In this document: piece by piece, positions 1-39,932 of the stretch
Numbering within the stretch: the first letter of the stretch is position 1
Layout: every line of letters begins with the position of its first letter
Assembly: GCA_004565275.1 (NCBI GenBank)
Contig: SDOX01000002.1
Location: forward strand, 318,884-382,883
Source of the DNA: Nannochloropsis salina CCMP1776
Taxonomy: Eukaryota; Sar; Eustigmatophyceae; Eustigmatales; Monodopsidaceae
Reading direction: 5' to 3'
Length of the DNA: 64,000 nt
Translations under genes and position numbers: made by a program
Notes under the pieces: model-generated
Databases searched by the model: none
What the model was told of the DNA's origin: nothing
What the model saw: the letters and a program-made list of their open reading frames with translations, nothing else

Positions 1-410
1 TTCCCTTGAGTGCCGGCTGCCCTTCAGTCGCAGCGTCAGCAAGAGGCGGCCCCCCTCTTTCATTTCTTAAGCGGGGGCTTCGCTTCGTCTCCCGACCAGG
101 CTCTAGCTTCATGGTATTCAATCCTGCCATTTTCCAACGCCTCGATTGATGTCCTGACGTGGGTAAAATTTTATATCGATCAAAACTAGTGTTGGCGTAA
201 GAAACGAGGAATTTGTGGCGGCGATAACCAGACTACCGGAAGGCGAGCGAGCAGGAGAGCGCCTGGCGCAGGATACGAACCAAAAAAAATGCCACTCATG
301 TATTGTAACACCCTAAAACAGGTACAATTTAGACGCCCATGACAGGGTCATGAAGACACGCGGAGTTAGTGGGGATGCTATTCGATCGTAAACTTCCTGT
401 GTGAACTTTG
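1..410. other. Upstream region of the PPR gene, no gene seen
   Basis: There is no convincing coding sequence here. The stretch probably holds the 5' untranslated region and promoter of the PPR gene that starts at 411, and perhaps the end of a gene lying outside the window. No repeat or RNA gene was recognised. Confidence 0.4.
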
Positions 411-3400
411 ATGGCCACTGTCAGGGTTGCAGCCTCGGCGTCTCAGGCAACATCAACCAGCCGCACAACCCGGAAACGCCGCCGCCCCCCATGGCGCGCA
501 ATGGTTTTTGCAGCTTCAGCCTTACTATGTCCTATTTCAGCGGGTGTGGATGCATTTGTCCGGTCAGGAGTTGATCCATCATTTTACCAAGGCTCACGGC
601 TCAGGTCCTGGCACACCCTCACAGTCCCGCGACGACCTCCTCCAAGTGAACGACATTGCCAATTTTTTTTCCTTTATGAGGCTTTGCTAACGCTGACTGC
701 ATCCAAAGAGTCGAATGATGGCAATGATTTCAAGCAGAAATCAAGTGCAAGGATGTCGGGCCGAGGCGTATCATCGTATTTTCTCACCCACAGCACGCTC
801 GGCCCGCCGCACGCCTCGTTGCATCCTCCTTTGCTTCTCGACGACGAGCGTCAAGCGGCCATAGTGAGCAAGCTGGCGAAGGAAGGATATCTCAAGCAAG
901 CTGTCAAGCTTTTGTCCAATTTAAAGGCTCCATCTCCCCTCCTTGTGCGAACCCTTTTGATGGCATGTGTAAATGCGGAGAGCTTACCCTTGGCCCTTGC
1001 TGTGGTGAAAATGCCGCACGTGCATCCTTCCGTGCAGCAATACACCTTAGTCATCAAAATTTGTGCCCGGCAGGAGAGATGGTTTGAGGCCGTGCGCCTT
1101 CTGCGCGACATGCGGACCCGAGGGGCACCGCCCGACCTGGTCGCTTACACCGCCGTGATGGATTGTTGCGCCAAGGCGGGCCAGTGGGAGGCAGCCCTGA
1201 CGCTCATCCCTGAAATGAAGGAAGCGGGTGTTCGGCCTGATCGCATTACGTATAACACGGCCATTGATGCGTGCGCGAAGGGGGGGCAATGGCAGAGAGC
1301 TTTGGAAATTTTGCGTGGGATGGAGGAACCTAATTTGATCAGCTACAACAGTGCGTTGGATTCTTGCGCTAAGACAGGCCGATGGAAGGAGGCAGTAGGG
1401 CTGTTGGAGGAAATGCGGCAGGCAGGCAGGAGGAAAGATGGTAGGGGGAGCACGGTCAGCGACCAGACGCACCAAGTCGGCGCCAACCAGGGCAACACCA
1501 CCAACACTAGTCCCGGCAATCGAGGTGGCAAGCCGTCCATCCGGCCCAACATTATCTCCTACAACACCGCGATAGAGGCCTGCGCGAAAAGGGGGCGCTT
1601 TGAAGAAGCCCTGGCCATCCTGAGATCCATGCAGCTCCCCGACACGGAGAGGGCGGGGGGGCATGTGCCTCTCCCCGGCGCGAGTAAGAAGCGCAACGGA
1701 GCCTCCCATCACCGCCGCCACCAACGTCTTGCGCCAGAACCGGACCTGGTCACGTACCATTCCGCGATCAAAGCATGTGGACATGCTGGGCAGTGGGAAC
1801 ATGCCTTAAGCCTCCTTGCCGAGGTGCGTGCCGCTCGATGGATTGAGCTGGAGCCCTCCACCTACAATGCTGCCATCGCGGCTTGCGCCAAATCTGGTCG
1901 ATTCAACGAGGCGCTGGACTTGTTGAAGGAATGTGGAGATGCCAGCAATGTCGTGACTTACAACTCGGCCATGCAGGCTTGCTCCTCGGGTGGGCGGCCG
2001 GACCTCGCCTTCCAGCTGTTGCAGGTGATGAAGGCCAATGGAGTGGAGCCCGACGTGGTAAGCTACACTACCGTCATGCAACGTTCCTCGGTCGACGTAG
2101 CTACAAGTGTCCTCAATCGCATGCGTGCAGCGGGCGTGAGCGTGGGGGTTATGACCTATAACGCGCTTTTGAATGCCTGTGCTCGGGAGGGCGATTGGCG
2201 GACGAGCCTCGCGATGCTGGAGGAGATGGATCATCAGTCTGTGGCCCCCAACGTCGTGAGTTACACCCTGGCCATGGAAGCGTGTGGCCGAGGGGGGCAA
2301 TGGCAAGCGGCACTGGAGGTATTGAACGAGATGACCGTGCGTGGTGTCCCGTTGGACTCGAAGGCTTGCCAGACGGCCATCGACGTGTGCGCCAAGGTTC
2401 AGGACTGGAACAAGGCACTGAGTCTCCTCAGGGACGTGAGTGCGCAGGGCAGAGATGGAATAGGAGACCAGGGCAGCGGCAACGGAGGTACTAAGGAATT
2501 GTACGAGAAAGCCATGGCTGCGTTTGGGCGGGCGGGGGAATGGGAGAAAGTCTTGTGGCTGCTTGAAGGAATGGATCGTCCTAATCAGAAAGTGACCAAC
2601 CTGGCAATGCGAGCATGTGCTCAGGCGGGAAGATGGGAAGAAGCTGTCGGCCTTCTGCAGAATATGACGAGCAAGGGCATTGCTCCAGACCAATGGAGCT
2701 ACAACACGGCCATCCATGCCTGTGCACAGGCCGGAAATGCCGAAAAAGCCTTGAAACTGTTGAAGGAAATGGGCCAAGAAGGCGTCGTTCCTGACGTGGT
2801 AAGCTATACGACTGCCATGGATGCATGTGCCTCGGTAGGAGACGTGGAAACAAGTCGCCGGCTTTTGGAAGAGATGGTGAAGAAGGGTGTCCACCCGAAC
2901 CATCGGAGCTTCAATGCCATTATGAGTGCGCATGGGAATGCAGGCCAGGCCACCGAAGCCATTGCTGTGCTGGGTCTGATGACTGAGCATGGGCTGACCC
3001 CGGACGTGAAGAGCTACACTCTGGCCATGGACGTATGTCTGCGTCAAGGCCTGTGGCAAGTTGCTCTCAAAATCGTGGAACGCATGCATGCAACGCGGGT
3101 GCGCTTTGATGCGATTTCTTACGGCAAGGCTATCCACGCGGCCCATTTGGGCGAACAATGGGAGGTCGCGGTGGGGTTTCTGGATGAAATGGTGGAGAGT
3201 GGTTGGCTTCCGAGTCATAAGAGCTATACCCTGGTGGTCGAGGCATGCCGGCGAGCGGGAGAGTCGAGGCTGGCCGAAGAGGTAAGTAGACGCTGGGCGC
3301 GTGATAAAGAAAGCTTGGCGCGAGCGAATCGTCGGAGTGGGGGGAAAGGATTGGCAGACACTCGGCGACGCGATACCCGAGGAGAGTCTAATTCTGAGGG

Positions 3401-3584
3401 ACGAAAACATGGGACAAGTCCGATTGAAAATCAGCCCGAAAGCAGCCGTGGGAACAAGGATGGCGCGCGAGTGGACACAACGAGAGGCTCTTCTTCTGCC
3501 ACAGTGAGCATCACCAACCCTGTGAGCCGTCCACCACCATCCTCGGGCCTGGGTCCGCAATTTCCGTTTCAAACGAAACGATAA
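411..3584 (+). CDS. Pentatricopeptide repeat (PPR) protein, probably plastid-targeted
   Basis: A single-exon protein of 1057 residues. From about residue 155 to 985 it is built of roughly 20-22 PPR units of the form SYNTAIDACAKxGxWExALxLL. Such helical-hairpin arrays bind organellar RNA in a sequence-specific way and act in transcript processing, stability or translation. The N-terminus has a hydrophobic stretch (MVFAASALLCPIS) ending in VDA-FVRS. This resembles the signal peptide plus conserved Phe of heterokont plastid preproteins. The Met codon at 501 would put that signal at the very N-terminus and may be the true start; the ATG at 411 adds 30 basic residues. One unit near 2080-2150 is short, and two loops carry low-complexity insertions (near 1430-1530 and 1640-1735). 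The C-terminal ~75 residues are polar and disordered. The PPR assignment is firm. The RNA target is unknown, and plastid targeting is an inference from the leader. Confidence 0.9.
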   Translation: MATVRVAASASQATSTSRTTRKRRRPPWRAMVFAASALLCPISAGVDAFVRSGVDPSFYQGSRLRSWHTLTVPRRPPPSERHCQFFFLYEALLTLTASKESNDGNDFKQKSSARMSGRGVSSYFLTHSTLGPPHASLHPPLLLDDERQAAIVSKLAKEGYLKQAVKLLSNLKAPSPLLVRTLLMACVNAESLPLALAVVKMPHVHPSVQQYTLVIKICARQERWFEAVRLLRDMRTRGAPPDLVAYTAVMDCCAKAGQWEAALTLIPEMKEAGVRPDRITYNTAIDACAKGGQWQRALEILRGMEEPNLISYNSALDSCAKTGRWKEAVGLLEEMRQAGRRKDGRGSTVSDQTHQVGANQGNTTNTSPGNRGGKPSIRPNIISYNTAIEACAKRGRFEEALAILRSMQLPDTERAGGHVPLPGASKKRNGASHHRRHQRLAPEPDLVTYHSAIKACGHAGQWEHALSLLAEVRAARWIELEPSTYNAAIAACAKSGRFNEALDLLKECGDASNVVTYNSAMQACSSGGRPDLAFQLLQVMKANGVEPDVVSYTTVMQRSSVDVATSVLNRMRAAGVSVGVMTYNALLNACAREGDWRTSLAMLEEMDHQSVAPNVVSYTLAMEACGRGGQWQAALEVLNEMTVRGVPLDSKACQTAIDVCAKVQDWNKALSLLRDVSAQGRDGIGDQGSGNGGTKELYEKAMAAFGRAGEWEKVLWLLEGMDRPNQKVTNLAMRACAQAGRWEEAVGLLQNMTSKGIAPDQWSYNTAIHACAQAGNAEKALKLLKEMGQEGVVPDVVSYTTAMDACASVGDVETSRRLLEEMVKKGVHPNHRSFNAIMSAHGNAGQATEAIAVLGLMTEHGLTPDVKSYTLAMDVCLRQGLWQVALKIVERMHATRVRFDAISYGKAIHAAHLGEQWEVAVGFLDEMVESGWLPSHKSYTLVVEACRRAGESRLAEEVSRRWARDKESLARANRRSGGKGLADTRRRDTRGESNSEGRKHGTSPIENQPESSRGNKDGARVDTTRGSSSATVSITNPVSRPPPSSGLGPQFPFQTKR

Positions 3585-3942: not shown

Positions 3943-6318
3943 TCACATCTCGTTGTCGCTCCAAGGATGCAAAGGCAAACCAAGGTACGATAGCTCAATA
4001 TGCTCGCTGTCAGTCATTGTTAAAGCTACCTCTACAGGCTCCTCATAGGACCCGTACATTGAATACAGAATATCATTGGAGACAACCAAGTCTCCCAAGG
4101 AATATGTTACTCCTTTCTGGCCGCTCAGCCTCCGACCGAACAATGTAAGGGTAAATCCGCCCCGCGGTTGAAATACGGCCCGCCACCGATATTTTAGATA
4201 TTGGGTTGTAATCCAAAATTGGATAGTGAGAGCTGTAAGGGGCGCCACATTGATGCCAAGTTGCCATGTCCGGACATCCACCAATTCCTTGAAAAATAGA
4301 AATTGGTAGAATGTATTAAAGGAGCCGGTCAGCGCGTTCTGGACAAGCTTCCCTTGCTCACTCAATAAATCGACTTCACTGGGTCGGGAACGTCTTCTTT
4401 CATTGCCTGCAACAACATTTCCTTCCGGTCTTCTAGTCTTAAGGTCCGTCTGAAACCGGAACCTTTGCCTTTGTTCAGACGAAAGTTGAAAAAGATCTGC
4501 AATGGTATCAAATAAAAGAATCCCAAAATTCGTCCGAAATCGCCGGATAAGGATTATTGCCCGTCCGTAGGCCAAAACACAGCTGACAGTCTCAGTGGGG
4601 TTTTGATTCAAGCAGGTTACCCGTCCGTTCGGCAAAGGCTCACGTGCTGTGACGTAAGAACTCTGATCATACACATATAAAGCTTTTTGCTTGAATACAA
4701 GCGGCGAGATAGTGGCGGCACTGCCAAGGACTCCGATGTCGGCGTTGTCTACGACTGGTGGTCTGCACATAAATGTATCGCTTCGTGGGCTCATATCCCA
4801 GACAGCTATGGAACATTCCTGTAAACCCCTTGGCGCGATGGATGCAGACTTCGATCGTCGATTGAGGCTGTGGACAGCAATACGTAGATAGTGCTCTTTA
4901 ATCGAGAGCGGGAGGCTGCTAGGATTGAAGATAGCCAGGCCGTCCGGAGCGTTCAGGAATGACCCATCGAACATGGGATGGTTCCGCGACACGAATGATC
5001 GTGATACATGATACATCGACGGCAACGAACGACATGTAAGCTCATTTCTTTCAGCTTGGTACGTCAAAATTGCATTGTGATGAGAAAGAAAGATTATAGT
5101 GCCGGTGTCGGGGTCTATTTTTATGGTCCAAATGCACCACGAGGATTCTGGCTGCATCGATAGGTATAGATGATACTGATCGTCCACACAGAAATATAAA
5201 TGTGTATTTACGTTTTTCAAGTAGCTGTCAGCACAATCCGTACACCAAGCGTAGGTACTTGATGGATATGCCGAGATCTCGATGTCCCACTCGTCAGCCT
5301 CGTGGGGACGCAGCGCAGCGAAGGGCGGCGTACAAGCCTTTTGACATGCGAAACAAGCGACCCGCCTATCGCTGTCATAGCCCGAAAGTGCGATCCAAGA
5401 GCCGTCGGGTTTCAATTGTAGGTGTAACATTTCTCCAAACTTTTGATCGATGTGTAAAGTGGCCCCTTCATAATAGGATTCGATATGCAGCCACCCTAGA
5501 CAGCCAGCATAAAGACTCAAGACAAAGGCGTTCTGTATACTCGATCTGACATTCACCAACTCCCCCCCCTCAAGCTGGCATTTGTCTTGAGCTTCGTCGT
5601 AGGTTGATGGGTCGGCCCAATGCTGTTTGTAGCACCAACCGTCTCGCTTGCACCATCCTACAGGGCAACCGTTGCCGACGCTGAGGTACAGCGGTGGATT
5701 CTCAGGTAGCTTATCCGACGCGCAAAGTTGAAAAGAAGATCTGTTATCAGATAGTAAATAGTCATTAATTATATTCTGACGAAAAATAGTGCTGCTCCTG
5801 TATTCTTCCGACAAACGTCCCAGAAGATGTTTTACTGGGTCTACCTCTCCATTCCAACTGACGGTGAAGAGCGATCCGTTCCGGTCTCCACAACATGTAA
5901 ATAAATGGCATGTTTTCTTGTCTAGACTACAGGGACGATCACAACGAAGTGTGTCTACTTCGTGTGGCAAACCTGGGTAGTCATTTCCACACCAGCATAT
6001 GCTTTGTGATCCTCCACCCGTTGCTGCTAACGCGTACCCGCGCTCAGTGCAAATGGCTTGACATCGTAGGTTGCTAAAATTATTCTGTAACAGTGAGACA
6101 GCGAATTTCGCAATAAAGTTGTTGAAGCATCCCTCCACTTGCTCATCTTTGCCACCAATGGCGAGTTTTGCTGAAGGAGGGCGTCGCTCGTCTTTCATGT
6201 CAAGATTCATAGCACCGTTTACGTCATGCGTCTCGGGTGTCTCGACAGATATGAAAGGCCGAGGAAAATACAAAAAAATTAAGAAGCAGAGCAAAAAGGC
6301 TAATTTCCCTATTTTCAT
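3943..6318 (-). CDS. Secreted WSC / C-type lectin-like protein, short paralog
   Basis: A 791-residue protein. Residues 1-24 are a hydrophobic signal peptide. Residues about 61-155 form a cysteine-rich WSC-like domain (GCF...CQAIC...CWCGNDYP), a carbohydrate-binding fold of surface and extracellular proteins. Residues about 218-327 form a C-type lectin-like domain (GCPVGWC, then WADPSTY, the CxLEGGELVNV core, GWLHIE, and a closing CFAC). Residues about 355-430 (LKNVNTHLYFCVDDQYHLYLS, WCIWTI) look like part of a beta-trefoil. The last ~360 residues match the C-terminus of the divergent neighbour at 6802 almost end to end but fit no family I know. The two genes are clearly paralogs placed head to head; this one lacks the extra lectin modules. 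I infer a secreted or wall-associated glycan-binding protein. The sugar ligand cannot be read from the sequence, and canonical EPN/QPD calcium-binding triplets are not obvious. Confidence 0.8.
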   Translation of the reverse strand: MKIGKLAFLLCFLIFLYFPRPFISVETPETHDVNGAMNLDMKDERRPPSAKLAIGGKDEQVEGCFNNFIAKFAVSLLQNNFSNLRCQAICTERGYALAATGGGSQSICWCGNDYPGLPHEVDTLRCDRPCSLDKKTCHLFTCCGDRNGSLFTVSWNGEVDPVKHLLGRLSEEYRSSTIFRQNIINDYLLSDNRSSFQLCASDKLPENPPLYLSVGNGCPVGWCKRDGWCYKQHWADPSTYDEAQDKCQLEGGELVNVRSSIQNAFVLSLYAGCLGWLHIESYYEGATLHIDQKFGEMLHLQLKPDGSWIALSGYDSDRRVACFACQKACTPPFAALRPHEADEWDIEISAYPSSTYAWCTDCADSYLKNVNTHLYFCVDDQYHLYLSMQPESSWCIWTIKIDPDTGTIIFLSHHNAILTYQAERNELTCRSLPSMYHVSRSFVSRNHPMFDGSFLNAPDGLAIFNPSSLPLSIKEHYLRIAVHSLNRRSKSASIAPRGLQECSIAVWDMSPRSDTFMCRPPVVDNADIGVLGSAATISPLVFKQKALYVYDQSSYVTAREPLPNGRVTCLNQNPTETVSCVLAYGRAIILIRRFRTNFGILLFDTIADLFQLSSEQRQRFRFQTDLKTRRPEGNVVAGNERRRSRPSEVDLLSEQGKLVQNALTGSFNTFYQFLFFKELVDVRTWQLGINVAPLTALTIQFWITTQYLKYRWRAVFQPRGGFTLTLFGRRLSGQKGVTYSLGDLVVSNDILYSMYGSYEEPVEVALTMTDSEHIELSYLGLPLHPWSDNEM

Positions 6319-6801
6319 TCACTAGACTTTGAGTACGGTACGTGGTGCGGACGAGCTCGCTGCAGCAGAGGGAAGTGCTGTTGATCATCCCAGCGTGATG
6401 ATATCACAGGAGTTTGTCAGGCTTTCTTTGCGTAACACTACCTGTGAATATATTATAACAGATGCTACTGATGTAAGAGCGGGAAGTTCTATCTTTGATA
6501 AAAAGAATTTCGTTGAAGAATCGAGCTGCTAGTGTAGTAGTTCGATAGGGATTATCTTCACCGTTTCTTAGCCGTTTAATTCAACGGCCAATAAGGAGGT
6601 TGGACAGCTCGAAATCGCCCCTTTGTGTTAGACAATTATCGCAAACGCGTCTACAAGAAGTAAATTGGTTGATCAATCGTATGCACGGCTATGACATAAA
6701 TATATACAGACACTTTCATACCAGGCATTTACTCTCTCCGCCGCCACCTTAATCGGGCTCTTGGCTTTGGTGGAGGGCTCACACTCTTTACACGTCAATA
6801 C
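6319..6801. promoter_or_regulatory. Shared divergent promoter region of the two WSC-lectin genes
   Basis: 483 bp between the ATG codons of two divergently transcribed paralogs. It must hold both 5' untranslated regions and promoters, so the pair may be co-regulated. I see no clear TATA box or operator-like repeat that I would stake a claim on. The bidirectional role is inferred from gene layout only. Confidence 0.45.
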
Positions 6802-9800
6802 ATGACGGCTTCGAAAAAGAATGTTTTGGTCTCAGCAATTACTGCTTGGACAATTGAGACCGCGTTTTTTTTGCCTATAAAAGCCCAAATATTGCCGCAA
6901 GGCGTTTCTACCCGTGGGAGCAGTGGGGCGTCGGCGAGTCCCTGGCCAGGCGCTGGGGATCAGGAAGGCATGATGGGAGCAGGGAGGGAACGTGTATTTG
7001 GTCAACGTCCCATCGGCGGCCTAACAGAAAAAATTGAAGGCTGCTTTGATAGGTTTGATTCGGAATTTGCAGTCGAACTGGGACGTGATAATATCAACAA
7101 TAAACGGTGCCAGGCCATTTGTACCGATAAAGGCTATGCATTGTCAGCCACCGGGTTGATTGACAGCTGTTTCTGCGGAAATGATTACCCGTCTGTATTC
7201 CATCGTGTAGATACTAGCTTGTGTGATCTCCCTTGCAGTCCTGATAAGGCTTCATGTTTCTCATTTACTTGTTGTGGAAGTCGAGATGAGCGTTTTTTTA
7301 CCGTGAGCTGGAGCGGGGAAATGGACATCATGAAACAGCTTTTGCGCCAATTGTCGCATGATTATCGGTTTAATAGTCCATTATTCAGACGCAAGATTGA
7401 GTTTGATGGATTTTGTGACAAAATAGCCTTTCGTCTGGGGCCATCACCTGTAAATCGCGAAAATGATCCTGCAACATACGCCAGCAACGATGGCGCCGAG
7501 GCTGGAGACAAACGTGTAAGAGCTTGGATGGAGCCTTCTGCTCCTCCATTATACCTTAGTAAAGGTAATGGATGTCCGGTTGGATGGTGCCTTTATGACA
7601 GTTGGTGCTACAGGCAACATTGGGCAGATCCTTCAACGTACAACGAAGCCTGCGCCAAGTGTCTCGCGGAAGATGCAGAGGTAGCTACAATCACATCGAA
7701 GGGCGAGAACCGTTTCGTCCAAGACCTTTACGGCGGCTGCGAGGGTTGGATTGGTATGAAGCAACAGGTGGCCATTACACATGACGAGAGGACATTGAGC
7801 GCCTTGGCGTTTTCTAATGGATCTGTGCACCTCTCCGACATGGTAGCTAATATTTGGAATGAAGATGGCGATGCACGCACCCAATCATTCCCTAAGCAAG
7901 CAGCATATCTATCCAGGCTGTCACCTACGCGGAATTTTCACCGCACATTGATGAATCATGGTTCGCGTCAACTTGGCGAACGCAAATCCCTCAAAAATAC
8001 CCTAAAACGGGCTTTCTGGGACCCGGGTGCCAAATTTCATCGATGGAAAGCTCAGTCTAGACCATCTCTCTCATCGGAATCACTATCGTCAATTCATCTC
8101 ACATCCTTTGGTGATCAGAATTTGGCAAAGACCTCGCAAGTTGGGAAATTTTACGATGTTAGACAGAAAGTCGGCTCTCTTAAAGAACAATTTGGCAATA
8201 ATGAAGCCGTGAGCAATGGCAGCCATTTGGATTTTGGTGAGGTCGAAGAGTTTAGCTTCACTGCAGGAAATTCAGGACTCACTCACGTCAAACTAGGGTA
8301 TGATAATATTGCATTTCGTTTTCTTAGGCCCGGTACTAATCTTGTCTTATCTGCAGATGCGCATTTGTCACTTTCGTCTTACTTGAACGAAATTACGGTG
8401 GCTTTTCGACCAGAAGAACGACTTGTTGGAATTAAGGCTGTTTTTGGCGTATGGGGCCTGCGCAGTCTAAGCTTATTTACCTTAGATTCTGATACAAATG
8501 ATAAGTTTCGAACGTACGGTCCATTTGGAAATTTGTTGATCGATCGTCCCGGTTTTCTGACAGAAGAAGTATGGATTCCAGCATCACGCTGGCACCACCC
8601 TGTCGTGGGTTTCTTTGGGAGTATCGCTAAAGCAACCGGGTATATTCAAAGTCTAGGAATGTATCAACGAATTCTTAAGGATTGTGGATGGATGGATGAA
8701 TCCGGTGATTGGCTCGCCGTTGACTGCTATCAAGCGCCAAAAGAAGTCATATTGTTTGCTTGCAAAAAAAAAGGCTGGCTGTCGAAGCGGGGCTGCCCTA
8801 GGGGATGGACACCCTTTGAAAACTCATGCTACCTTCGTCACCGCAGCCGCAATGCCTCTTGGTGGGATGCCCGAGCGCACTGTCAGGCTCTAGGCGGACA
8901 TTTGGCTTCGATAAAGTCAATGGCAGAGAACACATTTGTCCATACCTTATTTGGCCGAAGGGGTGGATACATTGGATGTCACCGGCGAAAATCCTCTCGC
9001 CCCCTTATAATACAAGGCAATACGACTGCCTTGGTGGGAAGTAACGGAGATGGATCAGAATCCTGGGCTTGGGATGCATATTGGAACGTAGCTGGTATGA
9101 ATAGTCTCGCTGATAGTCTTGGAAAGTGGTCTGCAAGACCAATTAGTACGAGCATGACGTCGACTTTGATGTCAGATCAGAGTAATATTCCAAAGCAACA
9201 ATGCTTTGAGATGGCGGAAGATGGTACTTGGGATTTGGTGCTGCCATCTTGTTTTACGGCCAAGACGCGCGTCGTGCTCTGTGAGGTTGGAGCAAATGAT
9301 ACATCGTGTTCTTGTCCTTCACCGACAAGAAGTCACGAGGAAGGGCCCGGCCCACGTCATGACACATCCGACGATTATACTTTCAGCCTACACTTCGGTT
9401 GCTCTTGCTACAAAAGGCAAGTTGTGTACAACGTGTCATGGGCGGGGGCGCAAGAAGTGTGCGGCTCTTGGGGCGGCCGTTTGGTAGTCATTGATTCAAA
9501 GGAGGAGAACGATTGGGTGCTCGCGCAAATTCAAGACAGCATGACATTCAATTATGGCTTTCTTCCGGGGTACATTGGATTGAATAGCATGCTGAATGGG
9601 GAAGAATACGATTGGTCTTACTATGAAAACTGGCGTCATCCTTCGTCACTGCCGAATGCCAGGCTAGTCCCCGAACACGACGAACCGGTTGACAACCCAT
9701 CGATGGTGATTGAACCTTCTGTGACGAATGAGCCGTCGATGGTGCTGGATAGCTTTGCATGCACCAAAATGGCTCGAGATGGATCATGGGTGACGAAGCC

Positions 9801-11400
9801 ATGTGACGATGAAGAACGCGCGAATTGCTACGTGTGCAAGAAGCCCCGCGCAGCCTCTTGCCCGGCCATTCGACCTTACGAGGACGAACAATGGACTGTT
9901 GAATTGATAGATGCAAATGGTTATGAAAACGTCATGTTTGATGAGAATGACTTCAGCAGGAACCCTCACGTAAACGAGTCTGCGGGCCCCACATCTTGTG
10001 CTTACCCTTGGTGTCACGACTGCTTCGATATTTTTCTGAAGAACGTCAATTCAAACCAATATTTATGTGTCGATGACCAAAACCACTTGTACTTGTCAGG
10101 TGACCGCGATCGTGCTTGGTGCTTATGGACTTTGGTAATGCACGGGGATACTGGGGCAGTGGCGCTTCTCACGCCGCACGGAGCAGGCTTATTCTACGAT
10201 GAAGAAAGCGGGGGACTGATTTGTCGCTTCTTGCCTCCCATGGTCGACCTCAGCCTCCAGACTCACCCATTTAAGGGTCAATTTTACCGACCCGATGAAA
10301 GCGCTTCGATATCCGAGCCAAGTGTCTTGACACCACCCCAGAATCCATCTCCGTGGGTGGACAGTGTCTTTGCGGTGGATGACATCGCCTGTTTTTACAC
10401 CTCCCGTCCTATCCGTTCAATTGCATGGCGATACCTTCGCATGAGCATCGTTGCTAGAAGTCGGGACTTGGAACAGCCTGGTGTAAAGGAGTGCTCTATT
10501 GCCATATACGACCAAACCTCTCGTACGGAATCATTTCAATGTCGGCGACGACCCATGGCCAGCTTGGGAGCCGATGATCTCGTTTATTTGGAGCAGGAAG
10601 CGTTGTTGTTCTTCGACCAGAGCACATTTGCAACTCCACGTGTGCCTCTGCCAAACGGGCGCGTTCGCTGTGAGAACCAATCGCCTACCGAGACGGCTAC
10701 GTGCACGTTTGCTTACGGACAAGGACTTACGTTGTCTCGTCAGTTTCGGGCCAATTGGGGTTACACGATAAGTGACGTAGTAACGCATCGCGTCAATGCA
10801 AACCCCGCCCAATCTGCGCTTTTTCGCGTCCCACCACCGGCTAAACGGCACAGCAAACAGGATTGGCAAGAAAAGCATTCTAGCCATAAGAAGTTCAAAC
10901 AACGCGAGGGGTCTGATCTGCGCCGAGAGTCGGATTTGACGCTCTCGATAAGTGAGCTAAAGGAGTTTCAAAATGCTTTCTCTGTGGCGTACAACAATTT
11001 TTACGAGATCCTCATTGTAAAATCGTACGTGGAGACTCGTAACTGGCAGCTTTCCGTCCCAGTGGCTCCTCGGACAACTGACACCATCCAATTTTGGCTA
11101 AGCTCCGAAAATTTACGGTACAGATGGCGCGCACTTTTTACCGCTCGAGGAGGTTTCACAATCACAACGGGCGGGACGCAAATCGGGGACCATCATTCCC
11201 TGGGCGACCTTACAAGTTTTCGAGACCTGTTTTTCTTCGTCTTTGGGACGTACGAGTTTCCTTACGAGGCAGAGATTATCATTACAGTCAATGACATTCC
11301 AGGAGATGGGTGGCCACTTCCTCTGCCGGAACAGAGCCAGGGAGATCGCATCCGGGATGTGACAAGAAATGGGCAGTTTGGCTTCGGCTATGGGCCCTAG
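6802..11400 (+). CDS. Large secreted multi-lectin protein: WSC, nested jacalin-like in C-type lectin, two more C-type lectin domains
   Basis: A 1532-residue single-exon protein with a hydrophobic N-terminal signal. Seen in order: a WSC-like domain (about 78-172); the first half of a C-type lectin-like domain (about 256-318; GCPVGWC, WADPSTYNEA, GWIGMK); a ~310-residue insertion whose second part (about 480-624) resembles a jacalin-related beta-prism (YGPFGNL, VVGFFGSI, YIQSLGMY); the second half of the interrupted C-type lectin domain (about 627-655; WMDESGDW, FACKK); a second C-type lectin-like domain (about 664-828; GCPRGW, CQALGGHLASI, VLCEV); a third (about 865-1014; CGSWGGRLVVIDS, GYIGLNS, CYVCKK); a beta-trefoil-like part (about 1067-1150; YLCVDDQNHLYLS); and a ~380-residue C-terminal region shared with the paralog on the other strand. 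I infer a secreted, multivalent glycan-binding protein, perhaps of the cell wall or for recognition. WSC and C-type assignments are good; jacalin-like and beta-trefoil are fold guesses from motifs. No enzyme motif was seen. Confidence 0.8.
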   Translation: MTASKKNVLVSAITAWTIETAFFLPIKAQILPQGVSTRGSSGASASPWPGAGDQEGMMGAGRERVFGQRPIGGLTEKIEGCFDRFDSEFAVELGRDNINNKRCQAICTDKGYALSATGLIDSCFCGNDYPSVFHRVDTSLCDLPCSPDKASCFSFTCCGSRDERFFTVSWSGEMDIMKQLLRQLSHDYRFNSPLFRRKIEFDGFCDKIAFRLGPSPVNRENDPATYASNDGAEAGDKRVRAWMEPSAPPLYLSKGNGCPVGWCLYDSWCYRQHWADPSTYNEACAKCLAEDAEVATITSKGENRFVQDLYGGCEGWIGMKQQVAITHDERTLSALAFSNGSVHLSDMVANIWNEDGDARTQSFPKQAAYLSRLSPTRNFHRTLMNHGSRQLGERKSLKNTLKRAFWDPGAKFHRWKAQSRPSLSSESLSSIHLTSFGDQNLAKTSQVGKFYDVRQKVGSLKEQFGNNEAVSNGSHLDFGEVEEFSFTAGNSGLTHVKLGYDNIAFRFLRPGTNLVLSADAHLSLSSYLNEITVAFRPEERLVGIKAVFGVWGLRSLSLFTLDSDTNDKFRTYGPFGNLLIDRPGFLTEEVWIPASRWHHPVVGFFGSIAKATGYIQSLGMYQRILKDCGWMDESGDWLAVDCYQAPKEVILFACKKKGWLSKRGCPRGWTPFENSCYLRHRSRNASWWDARAHCQALGGHLASIKSMAENTFVHTLFGRRGGYIGCHRRKSSRPLIIQGNTTALVGSNGDGSESWAWDAYWNVAGMNSLADSLGKWSARPISTSMTSTLMSDQSNIPKQQCFEMAEDGTWDLVLPSCFTAKTRVVLCEVGANDTSCSCPSPTRSHEEGPGPRHDTSDDYTFSLHFGCSCYKRQVVYNVSWAGAQEVCGSWGGRLVVIDSKEENDWVLAQIQDSMTFNYGFLPGYIGLNSMLNGEEYDWSYYENWRHPSSLPNARLVPEHDEPVDNPSMVIEPSVTNEPSMVLDSFACTKMARDGSWVTKPCDDEERANCYVCKKPRAASCPAIRPYEDEQWTVELIDANGYENVMFDENDFSRNPHVNESAGPTSCAYPWCHDCFDIFLKNVNSNQYLCVDDQNHLYLSGDRDRAWCLWTLVMHGDTGAVALLTPHGAGLFYDEESGGLICRFLPPMVDLSLQTHPFKGQFYRPDESASISEPSVLTPPQNPSPWVDSVFAVDDIACFYTSRPIRSIAWRYLRMSIVARSRDLEQPGVKECSIAIYDQTSRTESFQCRRRPMASLGADDLVYLEQEALLFFDQSTFATPRVPLPNGRVRCENQSPTETATCTFAYGQGLTLSRQFRANWGYTISDVVTHRVNANPAQSALFRVPPPAKRHSKQDWQEKHSSHKKFKQREGSDLRRESDLTLSISELKEFQNAFSVAYNNFYEILIVKSYVETRNWQLSVPVAPRTTDTIQFWLSSENLRYRWRALFTARGGFTITTGGTQIGDHHSLGDLTSFRDLFFFVFGTYEFPYEAEIIITVNDIPGDGWPLPLPEQSQGDRIRDVTRNGQFGFGYGP

Positions 11401-35918: not shown

Positions 35919-38219
35919 TTACTTTTTCACTCCTTGCTTAGCGAGCCTAACACGGTCATGCAGTGCCGCCAAAGTCAACTTTGGAGGATCACTTGTATCT
36001 TCCAGCACAGTTTTGGCTCCAATCGAAAGTTGCGGCGTAAGTGTAGATGGACTATCATCGATCAATGTTCCAGCTTTCTTATTCATTCTCTCCTGATCCT
36101 CCGCGATTTTGGAAGTACGTCTTGGGCCTATAGTAACCTTTGACGCTTTCAATCTGTCGGGCTCGGAGTCATCACGCACTCCAAGCTGATTACAAATCCG
36201 ATCCCCACAGAAAGACAAACCGGGCGGGAAAATGCATGTATAGGTAGAACGGTTCAAATAAATGTTGCCCTTTCGCGCAGCGAGGACCTTATCGTAGCAG
36301 GGCGCGGGCCCCTGCCAAGAATTAAATATTTGGAAAGTCTCTTTGCTCTCTCCCAACGTTGTATATGTCTGGTAGTGGTCCAATGATCGGTTGTAAACGG
36401 CTCTGCTCTTGATGCGGTTCGTCCACGAGGAGGAGAAGGGGCGTCGAGCATCACTTTCGTCGTCAAAGGAGCGCTCCAAACCTATATCTACGGTCGCCCG
36501 TAGTTCTAAGGAGCTATTATCGGTCGCAAAAAAGCTCTGGATGAAATAAGGGTACCGATCTTGCAGCCGGCGTTGCTCCCGAAAGGTACCTTTGCTTCCA
36601 TGCCGCTCCACAGTCGTATGGTCCGCCATGGCCCCCCGAGTCCGCTGGGTGTGATTGCCAACGAGACTGTTTTCGTTCCAGGCCGACAGGTAGGCAGAAA
36701 CGGTGGTGGTAATAGTCTGGGATGAATCTGGATAGGACAAGGTCCCGGATACGGAGAACTTATGATAGCCGACTGTCTTGTAGGTGGTGCTGTTGCTGCC
36801 TTCCTCAACCCCCTCTATATCCCGAGTTTCCGCAACCGACACCTGCGGTCCCGAGTCTGTCAGAGAATTAATTCTCCCAAAGAGCGGCGTCGAGGCTTCG
36901 ACGGTCCAGTCTGGATAAAGGAGAAGGGCGCTGGTGACTGACCAAATGCCCTTCTTATTGTTCCCGTTCACGCGCACGGAAATGTTGGGACGCGCCGTCG
37001 ATGTCCCCATGATCGTCGATGGGGCCCTCTCGTACAGCCCTGTGTCGTCCTTGGCGTCTTGTAAAGCAACTGAAGTCAATCCCACAGCATTTGAGGACAT
37101 GGCTGAATTGAAAATGCCGGCAAAAGGCGTCAAGTCGAATCTATAAGCGGGGATATCAAAGCTTTCGATCCCAGTAAGTGGCCGCCACAGAAAAGGGTTC
37201 ACTCCTCCAGTGTATAGGACCACAGCGGGGTATATAACCCCAGCAAGCTGTCCGTCTACCCACACCTGAATCTCTCGGTAAACGCCCCCGCCACAGGCGG
37301 TGCCATCAGGCTCCTGGGCGTCTGAGGGAGTGTTCGTATAGAAAAACTCTTCACAGCCGTGGGGGGAGGCCACGACATCCAGGTACACCCGAGCAATATT
37401 GGGTTGGGGCCAGGGTGGAAGGGGGAAACTTATCTCATCGTCTCCACTGAGACTGGTTATGCCTGACCATCGCCCAGTGGATGCGTTGACGACCGGAAAA
37501 ATGGCAGGTAGGACAAGAGGGGGGTACGCCCCCTTTTCGACCAGCAGGCCCGCGCTTTCGTTCTGGGAGCGATCTAGCTCTTTTTCAATTTTGCTAGGAT
37601 TAAAACTGTCAACAGCGCGACCGCGCAGAAAAGAAGGGAGCACGGAACTAGCTTGAAACGCCGGGGTTCTACTAGGGCGAAATCCTTCGACGAGGTTTGA
37701 GGGGGCAAGGAAGGGGCGTCCGTAAAAGCTGAGGGTTGCGTTGACGTAGATGACGCCCGTATATGTTTTGTCGACAATGTTGGCGATGCCCAAAGCCCCG
37801 CTCTTTGGCTTCTCGTCCAAAATGTAGGAGAGGTAATCACTTACATCCTTCTCCACGTGCCAATTGATACCTTGCGGGGAAGGCTCAGGAGTGGTTGTAC
37901 GTAGAAGCTCGACCTCCCCCAAGAATATTCCCCCACTCCGATCGAATTGAATCCCTTTTACAGCCCCGTAAAAATCTAGTACGGCCATAGAGACTCGCCC
38001 GCGGCATGCAGGATTGGCGTGTAGAAGAAAAGGTTGTGTTGTGACCTTGTCATAGGCGTCACATGTGGCATTTCTGACAAGGTCCACGGTGCACAAAAGT
38101 TCTCCTCGACGTATGAGCGGTGGTGAAGCTGTTACAGGATCATCATAGGCAGGATATGCATAGATGACGACGCGGGCAGCGCTCCAAAGCCATAAGACGA
38201 GGAAAATTGAAGTTTTCAT
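35919..38219 (-). CDS. PNGase A-like peptide-N4-(N-acetyl-glucosaminyl)asparagine amidase
   Basis: 766 residues from the ATG at 38219, chosen because it opens with a clean signal peptide (MKTSIFLVLWLWSAARVVIYA); the frame allows 18 more residues upstream. The body matches the plant/fungal peptide N-glycosidase A family: an N-terminal beta-rich domain (GIFLGEVELLRTTTPEP, WHVEKDVSDYL, ATLSFYG) and a second domain with CGGGVYREIQVWVDGQLAGV and PFLWRPLTGIESFDIPAYRFDLTPF. These enzymes cut N-glycans from glycoproteins, including glycans with alpha-1,3-linked core fucose, in the secretory pathway or outside the cell. The protein has many N-x-S/T sequons. The C-terminal ~100 residues are basic and of unknown role. 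There are no introns. The family call is strong; activity is inferred. Confidence 0.88.
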   Translation of the reverse strand: MKTSIFLVLWLWSAARVVIYAYPAYDDPVTASPPLIRRGELLCTVDLVRNATCDAYDKVTTQPFLLHANPACRGRVSMAVLDFYGAVKGIQFDRSGGIFLGEVELLRTTTPEPSPQGINWHVEKDVSDYLSYILDEKPKSGALGIANIVDKTYTGVIYVNATLSFYGRPFLAPSNLVEGFRPSRTPAFQASSVLPSFLRGRAVDSFNPSKIEKELDRSQNESAGLLVEKGAYPPLVLPAIFPVVNASTGRWSGITSLSGDDEISFPLPPWPQPNIARVYLDVVASPHGCEEFFYTNTPSDAQEPDGTACGGGVYREIQVWVDGQLAGVIYPAVVLYTGGVNPFLWRPLTGIESFDIPAYRFDLTPFAGIFNSAMSSNAVGLTSVALQDAKDDTGLYERAPSTIMGTSTARPNISVRVNGNNKKGIWSVTSALLLYPDWTVEASTPLFGRINSLTDSGPQVSVAETRDIEGVEEGSNSTTYKTVGYHKFSVSGTLSYPDSSQTITTTVSAYLSAWNENSLVGNHTQRTRGAMADHTTVERHGSKGTFREQRRLQDRYPYFIQSFFATDNSSLELRATVDIGLERSFDDESDARRPFSSSWTNRIKSRAVYNRSLDHYQTYTTLGESKETFQIFNSWQGPAPCYDKVLAARKGNIYLNRSTYTCIFPPGLSFCGDRICNQLGVRDDSEPDRLKASKVTIGPRRTSKIAEDQERMNKKAGTLIDDSPSTLTPQLSIGAKTVLEDTSDPPKLTLAALHDRVRLAKQGVKK

Positions 38220-39932
38220 ACTCGGTGCTTGGAGACACCCACAAAAACCTGTGACACGATCGGAAATGATCATTCACGGAAGTAAGAAGAATGATGACCC
38301 CTTTCAAAAAGTTTTTGGGGCTTGAACAAAATGCTAGTGAAATCTTCTTAACACGGCGGTCCAATCCCGTGGACGGGCGGGAGGTGACTTACGATGGGCC
38401 AGACCGCTCAGCCCTGCGGGCTAACCACCAACAGATCTGCCCGAGCCGCGTACACGATAAAAATAATGCGACCTTTCACCCTTGATTTGATGATCAAATG
38501 TTAATTTGATCCTGTCGCGCGAGTATACGCAAAGTGAGTTTTGAGCAATGGGTAGGGTAGTACGTGTCGAAACAGCGGGCTTCCCGACCGCCGGATGAAC
38601 TTGCTTTTTCGTGTGGTCACGTTGTTCAACTCCTTAAAATTGGAGCATGCTTGTTGACAAAAAAAAAGCCTCCACAGAAAACACGAAATTCTCATGCAAG
38701 TGTTTTCAATCTTGCAGTGCTTCGCAAAAAAGTGGTGATATCTGAAGGCACGGCCTTGCCGGATTTCTCCGCTAGCGAGATCGAAGAGCAGATGAAGCAG
38801 CTAGAGGGCGACCCTTCAACTGAAAATTAGATAATAACCTCGAGAATAAACTGCCCTTTGTGCATCAATTTTCAGAAAATCCCATAGATGTTCAATGATA
38901 CGTGGCAGCTGTCTACGATTGCTCGGTTCGCATACATATAGCTATATCACAACCCGGCTTCCGAGTTGTCGTTACCTCTTTTGCTGCTTCAAGGAGCCAT
39001 CTATCGGCCCATGGGTTATCGTTCAAAACAGCCAAAGCAAAACAAAACTTGAGCCGATTTGTGCGAAAAAGAGGACACCACATTGTACAGAGGTCGAAAA
39101 GTTTATGGAAATTATGAGACGAAATATTCAATTTTTAGCGAAATCACACATCGGGGACCGCAACAGAGGCGGGATAAAGGAAGTGTACCACCTCACTTTC
39201 TCTTTCCCAAAATTCGCATCTCACGACGAGAAAGAAGCGGCGAAAATGAAATTGTCCTCTACTACCAGGGCTGGAGCGTATCATAAGCGATCTACACATG
39301 CTCATCCTCGTTAAAGAAAATAGCTATAAGTGTTTGTTCACCTCTGGTGTACACAAAGGATGAAGCTGGTTGCGATGCAAGGGAAGACCTAGCAGTGTGT
39401 TTCTGAAACACTGAATTGATAATCAGAGGAACTGTTGGTCGCCCCTTAATTAAGAAAAGCATGTAGCTAGCATGGTGAAAACCGAGAGGAATGCATAGAG
39501 GCTTCTCATTCTTTTAAGATTAAGTGTAAGATAGGGGATAGGATCCATGATAGAGCAATTATATTTGTCGAAAGAAGATGCAATGAGTTCTAGCAACTCA
39601 TTTGAAATTCGTCAGACTTTCCTGGAACCATTTCGCAGAGTTTCGGATGACTTCCCTTGGTATATATACAATTTTACGTGCGTACGAACATCGGTTATCC
39701 TTTGCGTTGAGAAAGCAGCATGTCGAAGCTCGAGGGCCGATCGCAATTTCAGATTTATTGCAAAAGCCAAGGTAGAAACGGTGTGTATATGACCAAAATA
39801 GAACCCGATCTCACTTCAAAACGAGAAGGATCCGAGTGGATCATATGCTGTGTTCCCCCCCTTTCACATCCTGTCCTGTCCTCGTGCTTGCTCTGTGCTC
39901 ATGCTTACAATGCTATATCACCCATGTGTCAC
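38220..39932. other. Gene-poor region
   Basis: 1.7 kb of mostly AT-rich DNA between two minus-strand genes. Only one possible small two-exon gene (38291-38830, listed separately) stands out. Other frames have no domain, no good start and no splice partners. No tRNA or repeat family was recognised. Confidence 0.4.
38291..38830 (+). CDS. Possible small two-exon protein (speculative)
   Basis: An ATG at 38291 opens MMTPFKKFLGLEQNA. A weak donor (GTGAAA at 38337) can be joined in phase to an acceptor at 38717 (TTGCAG) followed by LRKKVVISEGTALPDF and a Glu-rich helical end. The result is 52 residues ending at 38830. The second exon looks protein-like (an amphipathic, charged helix), but I know no family for it. 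The first exon and the join are uncertain. Confidence 0.3.

Follow-up and report, generated by a model that had tools for sequence, protein, structure and literature searches.

The divergent gene pair and its domains

This report concerns a stretch of 64,000 nucleotides of Nannochloropsis salina CCMP1776 (contig SDOX01000002.1), here called the window, and one of its genes, P0001, whose first C-type lectin-like domain (CTLD1) very probably holds a jacalin-type domain nested in its long loop, an architecture seen in four related genes. P0001 is an open reading frame (ORF) on the plus strand (6802-11400), which comprises 1532 codons in a single uninterrupted frame. The short paralog P0002 (3943-6318, minus strand) encodes 791 amino acids with a WSC domain, one uninterrupted CTLD, a trefoil-like stretch and a C-terminal module (3946-4974). 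The two paralogs are divergently transcribed and separated by 483 bases (region 3943-11400). P0002 aligns with both ends of P0001, with 49% identity in the WSC-CTLD part and 34% identity in the C-terminal part, and the middle of P0001 is absent from it.

The most hydrophobic 19-residue stretch of P0001 starts at residue 8, and by hydrophobicity only, residues 1-29 (6802-6888, plus strand, as for all features of P0001) form a possible signal peptide. P0002 also has a hydrophobic N-terminus. Beyond residue 60, the 19-residue maxima are 1.45 in P0001, located inside the insert, and 1.23 in P0002; since no other stretch is as strong as the N-terminus, the profiles suggest that both proteins are exported. 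Paralog B, introduced below, has a hydrophobic stretch of 1.78 inside its jacalin. The Pfam scan of P0001 detected a WSC domain at residues 80-150 (7039-7251; PF01822, 34.2 bits, cut-off 27.8) and three Lectin_C stretches, in agreement with the WSC domain and the two further CTLDs that a preliminary description of this DNA had assigned to the large protein; Jacalin was not among the matches. The N-terminal half of CTLD1 (residues 255-355, 7564-7866) covers Lectin_C positions 3-53 and reaches 21.9 bits on its own (cut-off 22.6), and a family profile of N-halves gives 31.6 bits at 257-317. It is followed by the insert and by the C-terminal half of CTLD1 (residues 628-657, 8683-8772). CTLD2 (residues 664-830, 8791-9291) is defined by Pfam Lectin_C, PDB sequence matches and the family half-profiles, and CTLD3 (residues 864-1016, 9391-9849) by its best Lectin_C stretch at 878-1013 and the same half-profiles. 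A beta-trefoil-like stretch (residues 1020-1157, 9859-10272) and an orphan C-terminal module (residues 1192-1532, 10375-11397) complete the protein. The CTLD of P0002 is continuous, as had been described, at about residues 215-327 (5338-5676, minus strand), where the N-half profile scores 37.5 bits and Pfam Lectin_C 19 bits, which is below its cut-off.

The paralog family and the jacalin-type insert

The genome (26.5 Mb, 103 contigs) has 34 matches to the light-harvesting family, which mark it as that of an alga. Searching it with P0001 revealed six family members: P0001, P0002, the paralogs A, B and C on contig C1, and one short copy on contig C42 (L011:2699-4732). Paralog A (L009:2731-6684), paralog B (L010:334-3648) and paralog C, which is located on the minus strand of L010 and has several exons, form one cluster (L009 and L010, C1:232000-248900), in which two genes share a strand and the third is on the opposite one. 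Four of the six members, namely A, B, C and P0001, carry the insert and share the order N-half, insert, C-half, CTLD2, CTLD3; the insert, CTLD2 and CTLD3 are all absent from P0002 and the C42 copy. All six WSC, all ten Lectin_C and both Jacalin matches of the genome fall in this family. These counts are lower bounds, as the same searches overlooked two CTLDs, in P0002 and the C42 copy, and two inserts, in P0001 and C; thus, diverged WSC, CTLD or jacalin domains may also be encoded elsewhere in the genome.

The nature of the insert is clearest in A and B. Pfam Jacalin matches their isolated inserts over practically the full model, with 53.7 bits in A (positions 3-135 of 136) and 56.1 bits in B (positions 3-136 of 136; cut-off 22), and scores 49.2 and 50.6 bits on the whole proteins. 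The match begins around 10 residues past WGPGEP in A and WDVNQPD in B, which occupy the EPN/QPD-type site of CTLD1; beyond the jacalin come the C-x13-C pair and the last cysteine of CTLD1. The insert of paralog C was not detected by Pfam Jacalin when scanned alone; the profile built from A and B matches it with 52.9 bits after manual splicing and with 28.5 bits in the unspliced first frame. A GPxG motif is present in all four inserts, and their joint profile matches jacalins in the PDB (best E 4.8e-17), although it includes the clear members A and B and hence gives no independent proof for P0001. The nesting of a jacalin in a CTLD loop, originally proposed from the sequence of this window, is thereby supported by full-length Pfam matches in two paralogs, a homologous insert in a third and collinear motifs, at a marginal score, in P0001.

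Comparison with A and B delimits the insert of P0001 to about residues 356-627. The earlier estimate of roughly 310 residues (about 319-626) has to be corrected at its start: the first half of CTLD1 does not end at GWIGMK (residues 315-320) but extends to about residue 355. The resumption of the second half at WMDESGDW agrees with CGWMDES from residue 628, and both halves do flank the insert. A Ser/Arg/Lys-rich linker, recognized by its composition and without counterpart in A and B, makes up the first 125 residues of the insert (356-480, 7867-8241), and only the last 147 residues or so (481-627, 8242-8682) align with jacalins, at the position that the Pfam Jacalin match occupies in A and B. 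The motifs on which the jacalin assignment had been based are present, YGPFGN from residue 572 and VVGFFG from residue 601; the assignment itself holds for A and B by Pfam, and is borne out in P0001 for the distal part of the insert and with marginal scores.

Indeed, two points from P0001 weigh against the proposed architecture: the Pfam scan of its isolated insert gave no match, and the jacalin homology within the protein itself appears marginal. The profile of A and B reaches 8.6 bits (best stretch 532-582) and that of A, B and C 9.3 bits (best stretch 540-578); none of 2000 shuffled sequences scored as high in either case, the top shuffles reaching 6.9 and 7.3 bits. When residues 458-627 were compared with 177,635 PDB sequences, the top match was a jacalin-like lectin with an E-value of 0.19, and unrelated matches appeared from 0.35 on. 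The alignment of the single insert with the paralog inserts by hhalign was weak (probability 7.8 over 24 columns, in the RTYGPFG stretch), and the predicted structure of residues 255-657, based on a thin alignment, is confident only at its two ends, with a pLDDT (predicted local distance difference test) score of about 35 in the insert. As the profile, PDB and hhalign scores are marginal, the jacalin of P0001 is, judged from its sequence, strongly diverged, and it is identified chiefly by its location and its paralogs.

The missing Pfam match, the marginal profile score, the low pLDDT and the 125-residue linker would also fit a P0001 insert that is no longer a jacalin: the domain would have persisted in A, B and C and decayed in this copy, leaving a loop that is disordered or has another fold. 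However, GPFG and VVGFFG persist in an uninterrupted frame, and a jacalin-like lectin is the top PDB match, even if its E-value is poor. Decay is the strongest of the competing explanations, and we regard it as unlikely, though a serious contender.

The two halves of the first C-type lectin-like domain

If the jacalin is nested, the segments on both sides of it should belong to one CTLD. Alternatively, the genes could encode a tandem, in which a truncated CTLD consisting of the N-half and an ordinary jacalin are followed by a linker of 30 residues that merely resembles the end of a CTLD. The tandem explanation gains from the shortness of the C-halves, which score only 8-11 bits and are invisible to Pfam when scanned alone: none of the isolated C-halves of P0001, A and B had a Lectin_C match. 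A C-half profile was trained on the eight CTLD2 and CTLD3 domains of A, B, C and P0001, all of them uninterrupted, and run on the six proteins, with C represented by two frames. Outside the training domains, however, it matched exactly one stretch each in A (512-540), B (403-432), C (48-76 of the second frame) and P0001 (628-642) at an independent E-value (iE) below 0.01, and all four stretches lie directly after the insert (iE 1.2e-4 to 7.1e-4). The match in P0001 spans 15 of the 31 profile positions (10.3 bits, iE 1.8e-4). Weak matches were found in P0002 (iE 0.24), in the C42 protein (iE 0.011) and once more in A (iE 0.35). The corresponding N-half profile, trained on seven domains, detected three N-halves each in A, B, C and P0001, and a single clear one in each of P0002 and the C42 protein.

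The cysteines also argue against a tandem. The long-form CTLD has a framework of six cysteines. CTLD1 of A and B contains exactly six, divided three and three by the insert, and CTLD1 of P0001 contains nine, six before and three after it; the inserts of all four paralogs are free of cysteines. Joining the halves raises the Lectin_C score over that of the N-half alone from 21.9 to 36.3 bits in P0001, from 33.4 to 37.4 bits in A and from 29.7 to 45.7 bits in B (cut-off 22.6), but A gains little and the comparison was made without a wrong-C-half control, two further points on the side of the doubts raised above. In the predicted structure of P0001 255-657, both ends align as one CTLD fold and the final residues match the closing segment of such a domain, as expected from the initial suggestion that the halves pair across the insertion. 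No jacalin chain was found among the best 50 structure matches listed for this model, which is uninformative, the insert being modelled at low confidence. Taken together, a tandem arrangement is very unlikely, and a jacalin nested in CTLD1 is the preferred reading.

An artefact of assembly or gene model is hardly credible: the analysis relies on the genome assembly alone, but P0001 reads through as a single frame, and three more genes, located on a different contig, are built in the same way.

The inserts of A and B also lie inside one open frame, and paralog C has two introns, placed by eye, inside its jacalin. Exon shuffling was considered as the origin of the insert; no signature of it was seen, the introns of C being located within the jacalin and not at its edges.

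Comparison with known lectins, evolution and possible function

The CTLDs of the family resemble known C-type lectin-like domains (PF00059), such as those of Ly-75, the macrophage mannose receptor and Endo180, in their profile match, their cysteine framework, a WIG-type motif and their serial arrangement, and P0001 or its model also matched CTLDs of the Ly-75, macrophage mannose receptor and Endo180 type in the PDB. The family differs from these lectins by a complete further lectin-type domain in the long loop of CTLD1 and by the presence of a WSC domain and the orphan C-terminal module. EPN or QPD together with WND are motifs of calcium-dependent sugar-binding CTLDs and not of the fold as such. 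Read by eye, the first site in CTLD1 is QPD in B, EPN in C and EPA in A, and none is recognisable in P0001; a WND motif was found in none of the 14 C-halves of the six paralogs. Because it is missing from all of them, classical calcium-dependent sugar binding by these CTLDs is doubtful. The inserts share with jacalin-related lectins (PF01419) the full-length Pfam match in A and B, the GPxG motif and the matches to PDB jacalins, but they are nested in another domain and deviate in GXXXD, the sugar-binding motif of jacalins: in the insert alignment, read by eye, the Asp position is T in A, N in B and C and Q in P0001, so that it is replaced in all four.

The folds themselves are already known; a complete folded domain within the ligand-binding loop of a CTLD has, to our knowledge, not been described before. 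A jacalin inside a CTLD was not found among the matches listed in a search of open-licence literature by titles and abstract beginnings, which is a weak negative result. Coarse scans gave 28 pattern matches for the C-terminal module (A2) and 15 for A4 in viral contigs and 80 for A4 in prokaryote contigs, among which no relative was confirmed. Natterin-like proteins join a jacalin-like or DUF3421/DM9 domain to an aerolysin domain (PMC8402412). They are similar in combining a jacalin-like domain with a further module in one protein; in the algal family, however, a CTLD surrounds the jacalin, and the searches of Pfam and the PDB gave no aerolysin match for the C-terminal module. The rotifer BPBT lectins likewise combine a jacalin-like beta-prism with a beta-trefoil lectin domain in one protein, and no nesting, CTLD or WSC domain is described in the accessible part of that report (PMC8878817).

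For the trefoil-like stretch, the profile of the six paralogs matches designed beta-trefoils in the PDB (best E 1.4e-6) and, more weakly, FGF1 entries. Pfam detected FGF in two of the six members (best E 0.0091) and Fascin in one of the six (0.022); the stretch of P0001 itself matched neither. The C-terminal module is kept in all six paralogs, with 32-39% identity to P0001, and no other part of the family is so poorly explained: Pfam matched it in none of the six members, the best PDB match, which is not significant, is a heparinase (E 0.49), and an AlphaFold2 model from two window sequences had a pLDDT of 31 and was not usable. Its aerolysin-like look is an impression by eye of a strand-rich sequence with VPVxPxT-type motifs, with no search in support. 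A lectin-targeted pore former, in which the jacalin together with the CTLD loop around it would form a composite glycan-recognition site steering an aerolysin-like C-terminal module, is an improbable assignment.

Two other ORFs of the window may be mentioned: a peptide N-glycanase A-like protein of 784 amino acids (35919-38273, minus strand; Pfam PNGaseA, 173.9 bits) shares the window with the two lectin genes, and an ORF of 1058 amino acids (408-3584, plus strand) is rich in pentatricopeptide repeats.

The tree of the C-terminal module separates A, B and C from P0001, P0002 and the C42 copy (support 100/99), with no firm forks within either group, and a WSC tree of five rows, from which C was left out, gives the same split (80/89). 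Because the insert is found on both sides of this split, the insertion most simply would predate the divergence of the family, with one or two losses since. We propose that a jacalin-type beta-prism module was inserted once into the long loop of CTLD1, before the family diverged, in an exported protein consisting of WSC, CTLD, trefoil-like and C-terminal modules, and that A, B, C and P0001 would have kept the insert, the copy of P0001 having diverged strongly and gained a linker. The proteins would bind glycans through several of their modules. As no C-half has the WND calcium motif, the split CTLD may mainly serve as a disulfide-closed scaffold, which would present the changed jacalin on the usual ligand-binding face; likely roles would be adhesion to, or recognition of, glycans of the cell wall, the matrix or foreign cells. 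For the scaffold and glycan-binding part of this proposal, we would put the chances somewhat short of even.

If the lectin within a lectin is real, the long loop of a CTLD tolerates a full beta-prism while the domain is still closed by its disulfides. Since the genome searches placed every WSC, CTLD and jacalin match in this family, a large share of the lectins of these types in the alga may be encoded by its six genes.
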